Below, piece by piece: positions 34,101-41,342 of a stretch of DNA of 64,000 bases. Origin of the DNA: Capnocytophaga canimorsus. GTDB lineage: Bacteria; Bacteroidota; Bacteroidia; Flavobacteriales; Flavobacteriaceae. The position numbers were made by a program, and so were the translations under genes. The notes below the pieces were generated by a model. That model was not told the origin of the DNA, made no database searches, and was given only the letters and a program-made list of their open reading frames with translations. The stretch lies in NCBI RefSeq assembly GCF_002302565.1, contig NZ_CP022382.1:195001-259000 (forward strand), written 5' to 3'. The first letter of the stretch is position 1. Every line of letters begins with the position of its first letter.

Positions 34101-35641
34101 CGATATCCGCGACCTCTTCCGATGGGAGTTGCCTGTTTTTCTCCGTCCTTTACACACAGCAAAATATCGTGTGCGTTGGCATCTTTTTGGTTGATATAGA
34201 ATGTGTTATTGGTAGCTACAAGCTTTACTTGATGTTTTTTAGATAGCTCTATAAGTACTTGATTGACACGATTTTCATCTTCTTGATTGTGTCGCATTAG
34301 TTCAATGTAAAGGTCTTCACCGAAAAGATTTTTCCACCAAAGTAACGCTGTTTCGGCTTGTTTCTCTCCGATATTCAGCACTTTGGACGGAACTTCGCCA
34401 TTCATTCCACCTGTTAATACGATGAGGTTTTCTTTATATTTCTCAACGATATTTTTGTCAATTCTCGGTACGTAATAATAGCCGTCGGTATAAGCAATGG
34501 AAGCCATTTTTGCCAAATTGTGATAGCCATTTTTATTTTTAGCTAACATAACAACTTGGTAACCATTGTCTTGATGGCTTTTGTCTAAATGATTTTCACA
34601 GACATTAAATTCGCACCCGACAATGGGTTTAATTTCGATTTCGGAAGGAGTTTCGCCCTTTTCTATAGCTTCATCATTTTTGGCTTTGGCGGATTTGTTG
34701 TACCCCAAAACTTCCTTGATGAAATGAAAAGCCCCCATCATATTTCCGCTATCGGTCATTGCCACGGCAGACATTTTCTCTTGAATGGTTTTCTTAACCA
34801 GACTTTGTATAGATGTAGTAGCTTGTAATACAGAGAATTGTGTGTGATTATGCAAATGAGCGAATGGAGCTTTTTCCAACAAGGCGATATTTGCATTAAG
34901 CTCTTGCTCACTTAATCCGCTTCCTGATTGCTTTTGAATTTCTTTACGAATTTCTTCCGAAGCTTTTTTCAGGTTGATGTGTTTTAGCCCAATGGGTTGA
35001 ATTTCGGTTGGGTTATATTGTTGAAATTCAGTAATGTATTCAGCCGAAATATCTTTTGTTTCAAATCCTTGTCCGATGCGTATCAATTCAAAGAAACAAC
35101 GGGTAGTTGCTTCCACGTCGGCAGTGGCATTATGTGCTTCTGCAAAAGGAACATTGAACAGAAATTCGTGTAACTCGGTGAGTGTAGGTAATTTATAACG
35201 ACCACCACGTCCCCCAGGGATCTTGCAGAGTTCTGCTGTGATTTCGGTACAAGTATCCAAAACGGGCATATTAACAAGCGGACTATCAACACCATAGCGA
35301 TGAAATTCGGCACCCATAATATTGATATCAAACCCAATATTTTGCCCCACCACATAAGTTGATTTTTTTAGAGCTTCATTAAACTCTTCGAATACTTTTT
35401 GAATTGAAACTCCTTGTTGTTGAGCTAATTCGGTAGATATTCCGTGTACTTTTTCAGCATCGTACGGAATGTTAAAATCATCAGGTGTGATGAGAAAATC
35501 TTTATGCTCGATGAGTTTTCCGTGTCGGTCGTGCAACTGCCAAGCAATCTGTACGGCACGAGGCCAATTATCTGAATCTGTGATAGGTGCGTCCCAACGT
35601 TTTGGTAAACCTGTGGTTTCGGTATCGAAAATTAAGTACAT
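31181..35641 (-). CDS. dnaE: DNA polymerase III alpha subunit with N-terminal exonuclease domain
   Basis: A 1486-residue replicative polymerase. The first ~190 residues are a DnaQ-like 3'-5' exonuclease (FDTETTGLP at residue 5, GQNIGFDINIM, HNATADVEAT). The PHP domain follows (AHLHNHTQFSVLQ), then the polymerase palm with PGRGSAAGS and MPDIDIDFDDEGR, and the DNA-binding C-terminal part with an OB-fold (EISIAGMITDVQHRTSKNG). Fusion of proofreading exonuclease to DnaE is a known Bacteroidota arrangement. The original upstream neighbour was probably the WYL gene now found beyond 39.7 kb. Confidence 0.96.
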   Translation of the reverse strand: MYLIFDTETTGLPKRWDAPITDSDNWPRAVQIAWQLHDRHGKLIEHKDFLITPDDFNIPYDAEKVHGISTELAQQQGVSIQKVFEEFNEALKKSTYVVGQNIGFDINIMGAEFHRYGVDSPLVNMPVLDTCTEITAELCKIPGGRGGRYKLPTLTELHEFLFNVPFAEAHNATADVEATTRCFFELIRIGQGFETKDISAEYITEFQQYNPTEIQPIGLKHINLKKASEEIRKEIQKQSGSGLSEQELNANIALLEKAPFAHLHNHTQFSVLQATTSIQSLVKKTIQEKMSAVAMTDSGNMMGAFHFIKEVLGYNKSAKAKNDEAIEKGETPSEIEIKPIVGCEFNVCENHLDKSHQDNGYQVVMLAKNKNGYHNLAKMASIAYTDGYYYVPRIDKNIVEKYKENLIVLTGGMNGEVPSKVLNIGEKQAETALLWWKNLFGEDLYIELMRHNQEDENRVNQVLIELSKKHQVKLVATNNTFYINQKDANAHDILLCVKDGEKQATPIGRGRGYRFGMPNQEYYYKSAEQMKTLFKDVPEAILNIQEIIDKIEIYNLAREVLLPKFQIPDEFLVEDDPDGKKGENKYLRHLTYLGAEKRYELPLSEEVIERLDFELMIIEKTGYPGYFLIVQDFIAAAREMGVSVGPGRGSAAGSAVAYCLGITNIDPIKYDLLFERFLNPDRVSMPDIDIDFDDEGRSLVMDYVINKYGKNQVAQIITYGTMAAKSSIRDTARVLDLPLHESDRIAKLVPNMKLAKIFSMDDKQLKEKLRSDELPKVNELKQIAEGTDLAAETLQQAQVLEGSVRNTGIHACGVIITPDDITNFVPVSVAKDSDLFVTQFDNSVVESAGLLKMDFLGLKTLTLIKDSVELIKRRNGIEINPDEIPIDDKKTYELFQRGETVGIFQYESPGMQKYMRELKPTVFADLIAMNALYRPGPLEYIPSFIKRKHGTEPIVYDLDAMEEYLKETYGITVYQEQVMLLSQKLAGFSKGDADMLRKAMGKKIFALLEKLKPKFVEGGIKNGHPADILEKIWKDWEAFASYAFNKSHSTCYAWIAYQTAYLKANYPAEFMAAVLSNNMNDIKQVSFFLEECQRMGIKVLSPDVNESFYKFTVNKDGNIRFGMGAIKGVGKNAVETIVDSRKDGNYTSIFDVTRRVDFRNINKKAFENIALAGGFDSFTKVHRAQYFHDEGDGIVFLEKAIRYGNKYQENKNSPQMSLFGESSGVEIPEPTIPNCESWGNLEQLRREKEVVGIYISGHPLDDFKHSLDNFCNLSLTQLQDLSPLINREISIAGMITDVQHRTSKNGKGWASFILEDYEGSHEFRLFNDDYLKFRNYLILGTFLYCKFLVKEGWQKKDSNEKAEPRIQFTMMIQLQDVLASLAKKIALHLNIKDISTDLIENYKNIIEKHQGNYPITFIVHNMEENIHLNMDNGQLKVDISKEFLEELDQKSVSYVLNDRKMEKLITKKKEEVEEEEQLEVELIEEN

Positions 35642-35661
35642 AATTGTAAAAATCTGAACTA

Positions 35662-35669
35662 CAAAAATA
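35662..35669 (-). promoter_or_regulatory. Promoter -7 element of dnaE
   Basis: TATTTTTG on the minus strand matches TAnnTTTG, 20 bases ahead of the dnaE ATG. It lies only 26 bases from the island's left repeat, so insertion left it intact. Confidence 0.6.
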
Positions 35670-35695
35670 CGATTTTTTTAAGAAATAAACTATGA

Positions 35696-35733
35696 GTAAA
35701 ACTTGTGCATTTCAGCTACAATTTGCTGAATTT
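35696..35733. repeat. Left copy of a 38-bp direct repeat (putative attL), end of a WYL gene
   Basis: These 38 bases recur perfectly at 39715-39752. On the minus strand they encode IQQIVAEMHKFY, the C-terminal end of a WYL-domain protein, and here the frame continues with S and a stop codon. No WYL coding sequence lies next to it on the other side. It therefore looks like the displaced natural end of the WYL gene. Confidence 0.8.
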
Positions 35734-35884
35734 TTTTAATACATCTACATCTTTTTTGAGAAATAATTTAAAATTTTCACTACTTTTTTAGATGTTTTAG
35801 TGTTAGTTTCATTTTTTGTTTTTACAATGATAAATAGAATGAAAAATATTTTATATTCTAAACAATAAATAATTTTATATCAAA

Positions 35885-35915
35885 TTTTTGTTAATAATAA
35901 AAAAATGTAACTTTG
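35885..35915 (+). promoter_or_regulatory. Promoter of the methyltransferase-helicase gene
   Basis: TTTTTG (35885-35890), 17 bases, then TAACTTTG (35908-35915): an excellent match to the Bacteroidota promoter. It lies inside the repeat-bounded segment, so the island carries its own promoter. The leader is about 85 bases. Confidence 0.7.
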
Positions 35916-36006
35916 TTTTCAGAAAAAATCATAGTGTATTTTTTTAGTTTTAAGATAAGATTCTATTTTTTATTTATTAACTAACTCTAATAAATTAAGA
36001 TTAATT

Positions 36007-38550
36007 ATGGAAACCTATGAAAACATTCTTTATAGAAGAAAATTATTTGATATAAACCATATTATACAAATTTCAAAGGATTTAGTTCCTAATGATAGAA
36101 AAAGTAAACCTTGGCAGGAATTAAAACACGGAGAAGATTTATTAGAAGCAGAAGACGAATTAGCTTGCTATATCGCTGCTTATGGCGAAATGCATAAAAT
36201 AAAATGTTATGCAGCCTTTCAAAACTTCCCTTTCGATCAGTTAAACGAAGTTATTGAAATTGTAGATTGGGGATGTGGACAAGGAATAGCTTCTTTATGT
36301 TTCTTACAAGTTTTAAAGGAGCGAGACAAAGGCTATTATGAACAATTTATACGAAAAATAACACTTATAGAGCCTTCTAAATCAGCTTTACAAAGAGCTG
36401 TTTTTAATCTAAGTTTATATACGGAAGGGAAAATTAATATTGAAGTGTTTAATGAATATTTACCCTCTAATAACAACGTATCAGAAAATTTTAATCAATT
36501 ATCGTTTAATAGTCCGATTACAATTCATTTATTTTCAAATATTTTAGATATTATTTCTATTGATTTAGTGCGTTTGTTTGAATTGATACAAAAAGCAAGT
36601 AAAAGAGAAAAACATTTTGTTCTTTGTATAGGACCCAGAAATAATAATAGAATTCGTATTGATCATTTTTGTGAATTATTTAGCCCTATCTCTTTCTTTT
36701 CGAATATAGATAATCCAAATTATGGCTATACTTCGGACACGAAGCATCCTTTTACATGTTACACAAAGGGATTTGAGTTTAATAAGCAAGGGCTAAACAC
36801 AAACAATAATATCATTGAGAAAATACGTAAACAAAAATATGCTATTGAAGATACCTATACTGATTATGATGAAAAAATTGTAAATTATGGAGTTGATGAT
36901 GAATGGTATTCTTTCTATGCGAAAATTCGAGGTTGGCTAACAGAAAATGATACTCTTTTTGTAAAACCCAATATCAACGGTGATATTGTTGATATGATAA
37001 TTATTAGACCTAATGCGGGAATTTTACTAATAGGCTGTATAAAAGATTTTTTTAAAGAAGATGACAAAAGTGACATTTTAAGAAAAGTAGATAATATCCG
37101 TGATAATTTAGTTGATATGTATCTTGAAGGATTTAAGGAAAAAATGATCCTAAATAAAAATTTCCAAAAAGTAATAAAAAAAGTATTGTATTTTTGTAAC
37201 TACACAACCAAAGAAATAAACGAAATATTTAAGGGAACTGAAAAAAATAGAAATTATAATATCATATATGGCTATGATTATGATAAGAATTTCTTAGATA
37301 ATATATTACCCCAAAATCAGTTATTCATCCAAGATATATATGATAATTTTATAAAACTGTTGGGATTAAATTGGCATTCTTACAAAGAAGGTGTTGAAAT
37401 CAATTTAACCAAAGAACAAAAATTATTGTCTAAAAATAACTATTCTCAAAAAATAGCAGGGATAGCAGGTTGTGGAAAAACACAAGTTTTAGCGTTACGA
37501 GCGGTTAATGCACAAATTAGGTCAGGTAAAGACGTTTTAATACTATTATTTAATTTGACATTAGTCAACTATATAAAAAACAGATTAGCAGATGTTAGAG
37601 CTGATTTTTATTGGAATAAGTTTTATATAACGAGCTATCATCAATTTTTCAAAACACAAGCCAATAATTTAATGATAAAAGTTAAATCAATAGAGCCATT
37701 TGATGATGAGAATTATTTTGAAGAAGTAAAAGATCGATTACCAAAATTTCCGACTATTCTTATTGACGAAGTACAAGATTATTCACAACCTTGGCTTAGA
37801 ATAATAGAAAAATATTTTTTGGAAGAAAATGGAGAGCTAATAGTTTTTGGAGATGAGAAGCAAAATGTTTACAATAAAGAATTAGATGAACAAAAACAAA
37901 TTATTATACCAACAGTAAGTGGAAAATGGAATAGAAGTTTAAATAAAGGTTTTCGTTTCAGTAATATAAAACTAAAAGACTTAGCTGTTGCTTTTCAAAA
38001 AGAATTTTTTATAAACTACCCAATAGATGAAGCAATAGCTATAGACAAAATGAATTTCGATAAAAATTTAGTTGAATATATATGCAATGTAGCTATTCAC
38101 CCAATAGTTTGGATAGACCAAATATTGAAAAAATACAATTTAGAAGAAAATAAGTTTGTTATATTAGCTCCTACTCACAGATATTTGAGAATGATTGATT
38201 ATCATTATAGGAGAAAGTTAAACAAAGATGTTTTCACAACATTTGAAACTCAAGAAGTATACGATGAATTGAAAAAAAGATATGGCGGAGACACCTCATA
38301 TTTTTGGAATGAAATAAAAAAAGTTAGGCGTAATAAGAAGATAAACTTTACTGATAATTTTGAAGGATTAAAATTATCTTCCATTTATAGTTTCAAAGGC
38401 TGGGAAGCTGAAAATATCTTTTTGATTATAGAGTCTCCTTCGGATATGGAAACGGAAAAGGGTGAGAAATTTTTTGATTCTCCCCAACTGATATATACAG
38501 CCATTAACCAGAGCCAAAAGGAATTTATTTATTTTAAATTTAGGGAATGA
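36007..38550 (+). CDS. Methyltransferase-like / NERD-like / superfamily 1 helicase fusion protein
   Basis: Three parts are visible in 847 residues. Residues about 80-215 resemble a SAM-dependent methyltransferase: DWGCGQG (87-93), then ITLIEPS (118-124). Residues about 295-400 resemble a NERD nuclease-like fold: GDIVDMIIIRPNAG then LLIGCIKD, where the usual E-x-K has become G-C-I-K, so it is probably inactive. Residues 465-847 are a UvrD/Rep-type helicase: LTKEQ, Walker A AGIAGCGKT (484-492), LIDEVQDY (584-592), FGDEKQNVY (614-622), SFKGWEAENIFLI. The motif VI region reads TAINQSQ where Arg is expected. The start ATG follows a good promoter. The frame ends in TGA at 38548, but the +1 frame stays open to 38602 (see finding). 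I know no named system with this architecture. Confidence 0.75.
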   Translation: METYENILYRRKLFDINHIIQISKDLVPNDRKSKPWQELKHGEDLLEAEDELACYIAAYGEMHKIKCYAAFQNFPFDQLNEVIEIVDWGCGQGIASLCFLQVLKERDKGYYEQFIRKITLIEPSKSALQRAVFNLSLYTEGKINIEVFNEYLPSNNNVSENFNQLSFNSPITIHLFSNILDIISIDLVRLFELIQKASKREKHFVLCIGPRNNNRIRIDHFCELFSPISFFSNIDNPNYGYTSDTKHPFTCYTKGFEFNKQGLNTNNNIIEKIRKQKYAIEDTYTDYDEKIVNYGVDDEWYSFYAKIRGWLTENDTLFVKPNINGDIVDMIIIRPNAGILLIGCIKDFFKEDDKSDILRKVDNIRDNLVDMYLEGFKEKMILNKNFQKVIKKVLYFCNYTTKEINEIFKGTEKNRNYNIIYGYDYDKNFLDNILPQNQLFIQDIYDNFIKLLGLNWHSYKEGVEINLTKEQKLLSKNNYSQKIAGIAGCGKTQVLALRAVNAQIRSGKDVLILLFNLTLVNYIKNRLADVRADFYWNKFYITSYHQFFKTQANNLMIKVKSIEPFDDENYFEEVKDRLPKFPTILIDEVQDYSQPWLRIIEKYFLEENGELIVFGDEKQNVYNKELDEQKQIIIPTVSGKWNRSLNKGFRFSNIKLKDLAVAFQKEFFINYPIDEAIAIDKMNFDKNLVEYICNVAIHPIVWIDQILKKYNLEENKFVILAPTHRYLRMIDYHYRRKLNKDVFTTFETQEVYDELKKRYGGDTSYFWNEIKKVRRNKKINFTDNFEGLKLSSIYSFKGWEAENIFLIIESPSDMETEKGEKFFDSPQLIYTAINQSQKEFIYFKFRE

Positions 38551-38601
38551 TAAATATGATCCTTTTTTTGAAAAGTGTAAAAAAAATAATATCATATCAT
38601 A

Positions 38602-39654
38602 ATGCACGAAAAAATTATTATTACAACAGATAAAGGAGAGCAAGTAGAAGCCGTAGCTCCTGTGGTTATTTCTGCTTCTCGTGCTACGGATATTCCTGCT
38701 TTTTTTGCCAAATGGTTTTCTAATAGGCTGAAAGCAGGATATGTGGTTTGGTATAATCCATTTAATCAAAAGCCGATGTACGTTTCTTTTAAGAATTGTA
38801 AAGCGGTTGTTTTTTGGACTAAAAACCCTAAACCTTTGTTTTCTTATTTAAAAGAATTGGATGAGCAGGGCATACATTATTACTTTCAGTTTACCTTAAA
38901 TGACTACGATAAAGAAAATTTTGAAATTAATGTGCCAACCGTAGAAAAACGCATTGAAATCTTCAAAAAACTGTCAGAAATGATTGGAAAAGAGAAAGTA
39001 ATATGGCGTTTTGACCCAATGATAGTAACAGACGATATTCCTCCAAGGGAAATTCTTCGTCGCGTTTGGAATATCGGAAAACAATTGAAAGGATATACCG
39101 AAAAATTAGTGTTTAGTTATATCGATATTAATGGTTATCGAAAAGTTCAAAATAATTTGATAAAAACAACCAATCAGTTTAATAAAGAAAATATTGAAAA
39201 ATCAGAATTTACAAATGAACAAAAAATAGAAATTGCGGAAGGACTTTTGAAATTACGCGAATATTGGAAAAATCAAAATTGGTATCTTGAATTAGCGACT
39301 TGCTGTGAAGACATAGATTTGAGTTTCTACGGAATTTATCACAATCGTTGTGTTGATAGTGAATTAATGAAACGTATTTTTTCTCACGATACCGATTTTG
39401 TGTACTATCTTAACTACGGAAAATTCCCCGAGAAAAACACTCTTTTCCCATTAGAGAATTTAAAGCAATTGTCTCCCGAAAAAATGAAAGATAAAGGACA
39501 GCGAAAAGTATGTGGCTGTATGATTAGCAAAGATATAGGTATGTACAATACGTGTAGCTATTTCTGTGTGTATTGTTATGCCAATGCATCTCGCGATGCC
39601 GTAATTAAAAATAGAAAACTATTTAACGAAGATAACGAAAGCATTATCTATTGA
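38602..39654 (+). CDS. DUF1848 protein (radical-SAM-like, C-terminal cysteine cluster)
   Basis: A 350-residue DUF1848 member. The N-terminal block reads VISASRATDIPAFFAKWFSN, then FWTKNPKPL and YYFQFTLNDYD, all family hallmarks. The C terminus has the cysteine cluster CGCMISKDIG, then TCSYFCVYCYANAS, suggesting an iron-sulfur site. DUF1848 is related to radical-SAM and spore-photoproduct-lyase-like folds, and its reaction is unknown. The start overlaps by one base (TAATG) the stop of the restored helicase frame, so the two genes are probably coupled. No promoter is seen in the gap. It is within the repeat-bounded island. Confidence 0.85.
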   Translation: MHEKIIITTDKGEQVEAVAPVVISASRATDIPAFFAKWFSNRLKAGYVVWYNPFNQKPMYVSFKNCKAVVFWTKNPKPLFSYLKELDEQGIHYYFQFTLNDYDKENFEINVPTVEKRIEIFKKLSEMIGKEKVIWRFDPMIVTDDIPPREILRRVWNIGKQLKGYTEKLVFSYIDINGYRKVQNNLIKTTNQFNKENIEKSEFTNEQKIEIAEGLLKLREYWKNQNWYLELATCCEDIDLSFYGIYHNRCVDSELMKRIFSHDTDFVYYLNYGKFPEKNTLFPLENLKQLSPEKMKDKGQRKVCGCMISKDIGMYNTCSYFCVYCYANASRDAVIKNRKLFNEDNESIIY

Positions 39655-39714
39655 AGAATGCTATTCCTAGTTATAAAAATTATTTTTCTCTAACATTTTT
39701 ATGCTATTAAATTT

Positions 39715-39752
39715 GTAAAACTTGTGCATTTCAGCTACAATTTGCTGAATTT
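39715..39752. repeat. Right copy of the 38-bp direct repeat (putative attR)
   Basis: Identical to 35696-35733. Here the repeat lies in frame at the end of the WYL coding fragment (EVISPN, stop or WFRKE-like residues, then IQQIVAEMHKFY). On its other side the frame runs into unrelated sequence. The pair thus brackets the inserted 4 kb. Confidence 0.8.
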
Positions 39753-39945
39753 CCTTGCGAAACTAATTGGGTGAAATCACCTCAATTTCAGCTCCGTGAG
39801 AGAGAATTTCTTGTCGAAAATCATACGTTGGTCGTAAAAAATATTCAAAAAAGGTGTAATTATCTTCCGTTTCGATTTCTTTTTGAGAATGATGTAAACG
39901 TCTTTGAGTACCGACAGCTTGGTAATTACGCTCACAGGAGGTCAA
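39715..39945 (-). pseudogene. C-terminal fragment of a WYL-domain regulator
   Basis: The minus strand encodes LHHSQKEIETEDNYTFFEYF, LRPTYDFRQEILSHGAEIEV, then ISPN, an in-frame TAG-type stop at 39763-39765 and FRKEIQQIVAEMHKFY. This is the C-terminal half of a WYL-domain transcription factor. The N-terminal part, with its helix-turn-helix, is missing: the sequence breaks near 39945 against an ATPase fragment. WYL regulators often control defence loci. The fragment cannot be functional. Confidence 0.7.
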
Positions 39946-39978
39946 GGAAACTGAAAAACTCGCTTTGCCTTTCAGTTT

Positions 39979-40500
39979 ATGAATGACCTAGCACAGTGTT
40001 ACAAAGTAGGGCATATTTCTATCGAGGAGAATCCTGAAAGCCGTTTGTACAAGGAAAAAGCCTATCAGTATTTGAACCCCACGGCTCTGAACAATATCGA
40101 AGCTCACGATGTACGCTCACTTTCCGAAATTGATAAAATCATTCGTGAAAATGAGGTTATTGTGATAGATAGTTTTCAGAAAATCAAAGAGATTGACAGC
40201 AAATTTGAAGTGGATAAAGATTTGCGTAAAAAATACAACGGCAAATTGTTTTTAGTCATTTTCCAACAAACCACAGACGGCAAAATGCGAGGCGACAGCA
40301 AATCCCAATTTGATGGCGATATTATTCTTTTCACAGAAAAATTCCCGAATTATCAGGAAAATTATGTGTATCCAGACAAAAACCGATACAACCATATCCC
40401 CGCCGACCAACTGAAATACAATATTTTTCAGCAAAGGCTGTTACCTATTGAAACCGAAGAGCAAACAACTGAAAATCAAACGTATAATAAAATTTATTAA
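39979..40500 (+). pseudogene. Truncated mobile-element ATPase (AAA/RecA-like) fragment
   Basis: A 173-residue frame that starts in mid-domain. It contains VGHISIEENPESR, a Walker B-like VIVIDSFQKI, then LFLVIFQQTTDGKMRGDSKS and FDGDIILFTEKF, as in RecA/AAA-type ATPases with a primase or transfer role in integrative elements. The Walker A part is absent, and an in-frame stop lies 27 bases upstream of the ATG. It is probably a 5'-truncated relic. The breakpoint with the WYL fragment is near 39945-39960. Confidence 0.6.
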
Positions 40501-40655: not shown

Positions 40656-40673
40656 CAAATAGTTATAACTTTG

Positions 40674-40746
<73 letters not shown>

Positions 40747-40821
40747 ATTTTCTGAGTGCAAATGTACAACAATATTTTATATTACCAAATTTATTTGCGA
40801 TTTTTTTTGAAGGGGCACATT

Positions 40822-40925
40822 AAAAGCCTATTTAAATTTTTATTGAGTAAAATTTTTATAGCGGATAATTTGACCATATTTTCTGAGTTTTCTAGCAGTA
40901 ATTCATAATTTCTACACAATGAAAA
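40822..40925. repeat. Dispersed repeat copy B
   Basis: Partner of 811-905. The core 40845-40878 matches 830-863 at 33 of 34 bases. Copy B abuts the broken end of the mobC-like fragment: the conserved QDFS of that protein is followed directly by the repeat. Confidence 0.6.
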
Positions 40926-41250
40926 ATCCTGAAATCCCAAACATACGGCTACTTTATTGCTTCGTGCGGTGGCGATAAGATTGTCCAATCCACGAAAATA
41001 AATGGAGGGAAGCTCATCGATAATCACGGAAGATTAGAGTTGTCCTTTTTTATTGATGAGTTTTACGATTCAGGAATTGTAGAGTCCCAAATCTGCCGAA
41101 TAGATGTTTTGCCTGTCGGGATTATTACTTACACAAAGGATTTTAGGTTCTTTGGGATTGTTAATATCCAATGAAAAATCATCACCTGTCATTACCCCTG
41201 ATACATCTAATTGTTTGGCAATAAATTTTTGGGATTTATTGCATTTAAGA
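40919..41250 (-). pseudogene. Decayed mobC/traG-like conjugation coupling protein fragment
   Basis: The minus strand encodes, in one frame, segments of a type IV coupling ATPase of conjugative elements: NPKEPKILCVSNNPDRQNIY, ALYNS-like LGLYNS, IVKLINKKGQL, VIIDELPSIYFRGLDNLI, ATARSNKVAVCLGFQDFS. Two in-frame stops interrupt it, TGA at 41070-41072 and TAA at 41034-41036. Each replaces an expected basic codon by a single base change. Both ends are missing. It is a relic of an integrative conjugative element next to tRNA-Met. Confidence 0.8.
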
Positions 41251-41342
41251 TATGCTTTTATTTCCGTATCTTTGCCCCAAAGTCAAATGTTCATATTTCA
41301 TTGTCTTATGTGGTTATTTGACAAAGGAATAACATTTTTTTG

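Follow-up and report, generated by a model that had tools for sequence, protein, structure and literature searches.

What joins, within one short insertion in a genome of Capnocytophaga canimorsus, the gene of a protein in which a methyltransferase (MTase) is fused to a helicase and the gene of a DUF1848 protein? The two genes occupy positions 36007 to 39654 of the window, by which the whole stretch of 64,000 nucleotides (nt) analysed is meant (contig NZ_CP022382.1, positions 195,001 to 259,000 of the forward strand), and an earlier note based on these letters had proposed that they form a two-gene system. The answer to which the data lead is that the existence of a module made of DUF1848 and the MTase domain is near certain, that the helicases attached to it are exchangeable and that the pair has the appearance of an undescribed system, one that modifies nucleic acid and probably acts against phages. 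The features of the two genes are the following.

36007..38550, + strand: MTase/NERD-like/UvrD fusion, an open reading frame (ORF) of 847 codons
36124..36786, + strand: class I S-adenosylmethionine (SAM) MTase domain, residues ~40-260, the module that stays constant across the family
36904..37056, + strand: NERD-like core without nuclease residues, residues 300-350
37384..38547, + strand: UvrD-type superfamily 1 (SF1) helicase, residues 460-847
37459-37482, + strand: helicase Walker A
37756-37779, + strand: helicase Walker B
38506..38550, + strand: out-of-frame end of the fusion with helicase motif VI lost, from the DNA and the alignment with P0001 and others
38602..39654, + strand: DUF1848, predicted circularly permuted radical-SAM enzyme, ORF of 350 codons
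39553..39576, + strand: C-terminal CxxxCxxC motif of DUF1848, C318/C322/C325

The evidence for the module comes from two samples of loci. A scan for MTase peptides in one genome per species (84,980 species) yielded 203 relatives, the best 80 of which were kept as loci. Rarity of co-occurrence, which the earlier note had named among the observations that would refute its proposal, is not what these loci display, DUF1848 accompanying the MTase in 76 of the 80; in all 76 it lies on the strand of the MTase gene, and the idea of a two-gene unit is thereby borne out. The remaining four gave no DUF1848 profile match, one of them (L029) being cut by a contig end and retaining a 46-residue DUF1848 tail. 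In 64 loci DUF1848 comes first and is separated from the MTase gene by at most 100 nt (36 of 43 loci with a UvrD-type helicase, 27 of 35 with a superfamily 2 (SF2) helicase and one of two others); in 12 it is more than 100 nt away, four times downstream of the MTase gene, and the order seen in the window, with the fusion before DUF1848, recurs in 4 of the 80. The second sample was chosen by DUF1848 alone and comprises 62 loci, namely four of the eight genomes matched class-wide and 58 stretches at a part of the stronger order-level matches, some of the loci being cut by contig ends; here an MTase domain is found within 5 kb of DUF1848 in 13, and in all 13 on the same strand. Two genomes are present in both samples (L030/L167 and L050/L186). 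The partnership can take a minimal form, as in L188, where the partner of DUF1848 is a lone MTase of 253 residues, or an extreme one, as in L164, where a single ORF of 898 codons contains DUF1848, the MTase and leucine-rich repeats. By itself this direct fusion is weak evidence: among the 18 genomes of its family no other has one open match across both domains, and in four of them (G794, G796, G803 and G804) DUF1848 and MTase are adjacent with a stop or a change of frame between them.

Throughout these loci only DUF1848 and the MTase domain recur. Thus, of the unit originally envisaged, the pairing stood and the particular fusion did not, the core being DUF1848 plus MTase with exchangeable helicases. 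Four layouts can be distinguished.

Layout A: MTase + NERD-like + UvrD, the type of the window
Layout B: MTase + SF2 helicase resembling DpdF and PsyrT, mostly 1,370-1,890 residues, with two shorter proteins of 872 and 993
Layout C: MTase + Sel1 or leucine-rich repeats and no helicase match (L110, L159, L160, L169)
Layout D, separate genes: DUF1848, a mini-UvrD of 355-388 residues, an ADP-ribosyltransferase protein and a protein with a C-terminal MTase

Our own hidden Markov model (HMM) places the MTase domain at either the N- or the C-terminus across several architectures. Four layout B proteins with full helicase hits were scanned and matched DpdF at 3e-68 to 1.3e-72 and PsyrT at 6e-50 to 1.5e-54; the layout B proteins of L071 and L096 carry WG repeats. 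The ADP-ribosyltransferase proteins of layout D (L155 11675-13327, L158 2024-3799 and L180 1724-3406) are identified by the Pfam family 2CompART in L155 and L180, together with the glycohydrolase family 2CompARG in L180, and by homology in L158. Four further loci (L108, L145, L154 and L156) have as partners an MTase-like protein of another kind (268 residues in L108), a mini-UvrD and an unknown protein whose length is 663-755 residues.

On a tree of 154 DUF1848 rows, built by a quick method and having several long branches, the UvrD label must change 25 times and the SF2 label 20 times, and well-supported branches force no fewer than 11 and 8 of these changes, respectively; the labels were assigned by our own HMMs, and by hand for L034 and the split loci. 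Exchange of the helicase, between two superfamilies that are not related, has therefore taken place repeatedly. The window DUF1848 falls in a clade of 26 rows (99*) whose other members are 19 database proteins of unknown context, four loci without MTase and two loci of split layout; it is 47-53% identical to the partners of UvrD fusions in alignment A2. This clade and these identities, together with the fusion-first order, suggest that the window DUF1848 may have been paired with a UvrD fusion separately. Its sister P0121 (89%) and P0002, a relative of the fusion (63%), share the value 4,183 for the longest contig, so that both may come from a single contig carrying the pair.

Other genes join the module in some loci. 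An AlkB-like oxygenase (PF13532, E 2.4e-32 in L165) is present in 6 of 148 loci and in none of 20 control stretches, and is encoded directly upstream of DUF1848 in L165, L019, L094 and L097. An NERD-SF1 helicase of ~1,640 residues adjoins DUF1848 in L173 (4452-9386, 1,645 residues) and lies between DUF1848 and the MTase-SF2 gene in L092 (5087-9970) and L093 (5090-9970). The YhcG nuclease, matched anywhere in 11 of the 148 loci, separates DUF1848 from the fusion in L036 and in L050/L186.

As far as the window fusion is concerned, domain analysis confirmed what had been read from its sequence, that is a SAM-methyltransferase, an NERD-like segment and a UvrD helicase with Walker A and B in one protein of 847 residues. 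The motif DWGCGQ (MTase motif I) and both Walker motifs of the SF1 helicase are present in all 37 aligned fused proteins. The MTase fold, on the absence of which the proposal could have foundered, is predicted: within the model of the whole fusion this part has the alternating β/α order of class I, the fold-match lists of that model being filled by helicases. The NERD-like segment, on the other hand, is present but has lost its nuclease residues. Whereas the free-standing NERD-UvrD relatives, 608-724 residues long (L003-L006), keep the residues E, D, E and K in four cases out of four, one MAFFT alignment shows the catalytic K kept in 0/42 MTase-fused proteins of the locus set and 0/37 of the database set, two sets that may overlap, and the E of E-x-K in 1/42 and 0/37. 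To judge from these residues, the MTase seems to have supplanted the nuclease on the same helicase.

The fusion is followed, after a gap of 51 nt and on the same strand, by the DUF1848 gene (PF08902, E 5e-89), whose position and C-terminal cysteine cluster had been correctly recognised; the protein, which the note called uncharacterised, does have telling features, its cysteine motif and predicted fold pointing to a permuted radical-SAM protein. C318, C322 and C325 of the CxxxCxxC motif, as well as C234, C250, C304 and C306, are all invariant in 42 of 42 proteins, and the motif itself is found in 133 of the 134 DUF1848 proteins of the loci. The AlphaFold 2 model has a predicted local distance difference test (pLDDT) score of 90.2, and in a structural search with it the first 14 rows are all radical-SAM proteins, in keeping with a (β/α) barrel. 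The usual order, with the cysteines ahead of the barrel, is not found, those of DUF1848 being C-terminal. In the same 14 rows the match begins at residue 1-18 of the model and at residue 46-167 of the target, that is, presumably, after the target's own cysteines. DUF1848 is therefore predicted to be a circularly permuted radical-SAM enzyme. Sequence searches of solved structures returned nothing real for either DUF1848 or the fusion.

How did the pair reach its present site? The boundaries of the acquired segment are marked by a direct repeat.

35696..35733, + strand: left 38-bp direct repeat, perfect, corresponding to the 3'-terminal part of a WYL-WCX regulator gene on the - strand
35734..39714, no strand assigned: inserted segment with both genes only, 4,019 bp between the starts of the two repeat copies
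39715..39752, + strand: right 38-bp direct repeat, identical to the left copy
39715..39975, - strand: WYL-WCX regulator remnant, the last ~85 codons with an internal stop

The 32-bp core of the repeat occurs at two places only in the whole genome when up to 3 mismatches are allowed; 100 shuffles of the window did not produce it once. The empty site is seen in G398 (L202), which dnaE (98% over 300 residues) marks as the closest among the 20 genomes of the genus and where the flanks, corresponding to window 34718-35724 (95.4% identical) and 39715-39897 (93.4%), join inside one repeat copy. There (L202 9000-9929) an open WYL-WCX regulator gene of 309 codons (WYL E 3.3e-15, WCX E 1.1e-9) stops 48 nt upstream of dnaE; it is at the 3' end of this gene that the pair was inserted, the window keeping a remnant of it. 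The two genes entered the window genome as one block. No integrase gene is found inside the 4,019 bp. In G413 the pair is absent, and at the corresponding place (L203 3838-9871) two WYL-like ORFs enclose other genes. There appears to be a cargo hotspot upstream of dnaE, with WYL-type regulator genes and cargo that differs between the genomes of the genus. Beside the insertion, 39979-40500 holds an ORF of 173 codons without a Pfam match at E <0.1; farther on, 40750-41260 (- strand) is a broken coding remnant adjoining tRNA-Met (40673-40746), which we take to resemble part of a TraG-like conjugation gene.

Both genes are single-copy in the genome (one contig of 2.41 Mb) and poor in G+C (27.6% for the fusion and 32.3% for DUF1848, compared with 38.3% for dnaE and 35.1% for the window). 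The last 14 codons of the window fusion are out of frame with respect to its homologues; helicase motif VI is therefore lost from this copy, its T-R being present in 33 of the 34 aligned rows that have letters there. Unless the loss of frame is a sequencing error, the alignment indicates that the helicase of the window copy is probably no longer working. Intact copies occur in relatives, the closest being P0001 (C. canimorsus by its source), which has 861 residues and is 95% identical. A promoter match at 35887-35915, to what we take to be the Bacteroidota consensus, was given no weight, since the window holds 7 such matches with 4.2 expected, and 7 or more occurred in 11 of 100 shuffles.

The occurrence of the pair is sporadic. 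The full-length fusion was found in 1 of the 20 genomes of the genus and in 1 of the 395 genomes of the class, in both cases that of the window itself, the only other match in the genus covering 91 helicase residues and 14 other genomes of the class matching parts; DUF1848 exceeded the cut-off in 6 of the same 395. By the names of their records, the MTase relatives belong mostly to Bacteroidota of animal guts, and DUF1848 is a large family, with 7,423 relatives among 8,000 scored candidates. IMG/VR holds two relatives of the fusion. DUF1848 alone has matches in 8 records out of 50,697 from phages and in 6 out of 72,556 from plasmids. The fusion is matched by 35 plasmid records, none with one place covering 80% of it, and the 10 plasmid matches listed fall within residues 311-843, the NERD-UvrD part, NERD-UvrD genes occurring also on plasmids. 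No near DNA match to the insertion was found on plasmids. On a plasmid of Parabacteroides distasonis (L254 8001-10206) the gene after DUF1848 carries the annotation DNA/RNA non-specific endonuclease.

If DUF1848 and the MTase form a module, what could its function be? We infer that it acts on nucleic acid from the helicases present in most layouts and from the AlkB-like, NERD-SF1 and ADP-ribosyltransferase partners. For a modular nucleic-acid-modification system the role that we regard as most likely, with a confidence midway between doubt and belief, is protection from phages or other mobile DNA, in favour of which sporadic occurrence, insertion as a block and the WYL regulator at the site have been counted. 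Free ends, forks or similar nucleic-acid structures, in DNA that is invading or replicating, would be found and opened by the helicase; on the strand laid bare in this way the MTase and the radical-SAM enzyme would work one after the other, one to methylate and one to remodel it, which would block both copying and transcription of the target. The NERD-UvrD branch would rely on this chemistry in place of the nuclease of the free-standing relatives, and AlkB, the ADP-ribosyltransferase, the YhcG nuclease and the second NERD helicase would be optional parts. A tentative and more specific version of the same proposal, to which we attach distinctly less confidence, is immunity by chemical tailoring, in which the permuted radical-SAM protein and the MTase, the latter having replaced the nuclease that did the cutting in an older NERD-helicase system, would build an unusual base or adduct on the nucleic acid of the invader and the interchangeable helicases would deliver it. 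Both the chemistry and the defence role are thus what we infer for the pair.

Several observations weigh against the reading of the pair as a defensive modification system. An MTase domain is missing within 5 kb in 49 of the 62 loci chosen by DUF1848, and a DUF1848 match occurs in 76 of the 393 genomes of one order-level sample; DUF1848 has therefore other work and is not rare there. Conversely, L106 and L107 have AlkB directly ahead of the MTase-SF2 gene but no DUF1848. The window copy of the fusion is itself damaged. In a search with profile A6 (19 of the 25 rows of A5) the MTase found no solved relative by sequence, the best MTase row having E 0.33, and the amino-MTase motif [NDS]PP[YFW] is present in 0/37; its substrate may therefore be RNA, protein or a small molecule. 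We know of no enzyme activity for DUF1848. Finally, 145 of the 469 eligible flanking genes of the 80 loci (at most 900 residues; 493 genes in all within 5 kb) were compared at PADLOC E ≤1e-10 with 138 of the 210 genes of the 20 control stretches; 175 and 77 models, respectively, were matched, and any listed PADLOC family accounts for at most 2 of the 145 neighbours and at most 3 of the 138 controls, an outcome without demonstrable enrichment in defence genes.

Among the alternatives, the one that survives best, unlikely as we consider it, is a module for the reversal of damage, spread by transfer because helpful under stress: DUF1848 would reverse a base lesion in the manner of spore photoproduct lyase, AlkB would remove alkyl groups, the helicase would open the site and the MTase part would sense or mark the damage. 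The UvrD-type helicase, an operon shared with an AlkB-like oxygenase in 6 of the 148 loci and the label "DNA repair photolyase" borne by 7 of the 120 listed DUF1848 relatives (one source) agree with this. A repair function fits poorly, however, with presence in a single genome of 20 in the genus and with the quick exchange of helicases; the ADP-ribosyltransferase, NERD and YhcG nuclease partners fit conflict better, and the loss of nuclease residues upon fusion is left unexplained.

Less probable still is a toxin-antitoxin pair, in which a toxic PsyrT-like MTase-helicase would be restrained by a DUF1848 translated first and coupled to it, and freed when the phage shuts off the host. The movement of the pair as a block, the matches of the SF2 versions to PsyrT (2.3e-52, 6.3e-50, 9e-52 and 1.5e-54) and the prevailing order, with DUF1848 first and within 100 nt of the second gene, are what such a pair would display, but seven cysteines kept in every DUF1848 of the alignment point to an enzyme rather than to a binding inhibitor, and the supposed antitoxin lies more than 100 nt off in 12 loci, in four of them after the MTase gene, and is missing from L106 and L107. 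There is also a slight likelihood of RNA modification or repair, in which DUF1848 would act on tRNA like a radical-SAM protein of the Elp3 type and the MTase would finish the modified base. That two unrelated cargo genes were inserted together by accident is hardly credible, for even if the fusion-first order of the window is rare and DUF1848 is commonly found without MTase, the constancy of strand in both samples, the mostly short spacing and the repeated re-pairing in the DUF1848 tree argue otherwise.

The preferred reading, a DUF1848-MTase module with a probable role in defence, defines a module mostly of gut Bacteroidota that is not named as one system in the libraries searched. A large family for which we know of no function gains a recurrent genomic partner and a predicted fold, and a case emerges in which one and the same helicase has apparently had its nuclease exchanged for an MTase. 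Should the modification prove real, a new nucleic-acid chemistry would be within reach by anaerobic expression of two genes.

The claim that no described system has this pair has so far held, none having been found in the literature covered or among the PADLOC matches listed. The open literature (5.39 million papers, subscription papers and most preprints lying outside it) yielded no mention of DUF1848, nor a description of the combination in the available parts of sources including PMC10853773, PMC12458937, PMC9503650, PMC10952713 and PMC12839542; a description in literature outside that covered is possible. PADLOC 2.0 holds the parts, namely C3a187, RTasDUF1848, DpdF and PsyrT, and the combination is unnamed among the matches listed. 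Closest are the NERD-UvrD helicases of the PADLOC candidate C3a187, which have the same order of NERD and UvrD and match the window fusion at 5.7e-18 and its relative L018 at 1.8e-35; the fusion differs by the additional N-terminal MTase, the lost nuclease residues and the DUF1848 partner. DpdF, of the DNA 7-deazapurine system, and PsyrT resemble the SF2 half of the sister architecture, the comparison extending to the helicase-bearing proteins alone, whereas here an MTase is fused in front and DUF1848 stands beside. RTasDUF1848, associated with defence-associated reverse transcriptases, belongs to the same family as the window DUF1848 (4.6e-39), whose partner is instead an MTase-helicase; the insertion having no third gene, there is no reverse transcriptase in the window unit. 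The prokaryotic viperins, which may be compared with DUF1848, differ from it in that DUF1848 is permuted and encoded beside an MTase-helicase. As to Gabija, no GajA match was obtained among the three window proteins scanned, and the insertion consists of two genes only. ARMADA, DISARM and BREX likewise combine a methyltransferase with helicases and, according to the portions available of PMC12458937 and PMC12839542, are anti-phage; the MTase of ARMADA, ArmB, is described in the former as PglX-like with an NPPW motif, whereas the present system lacks [NDS]PP[YFW], makes do with two genes and includes a radical-SAM-like protein.

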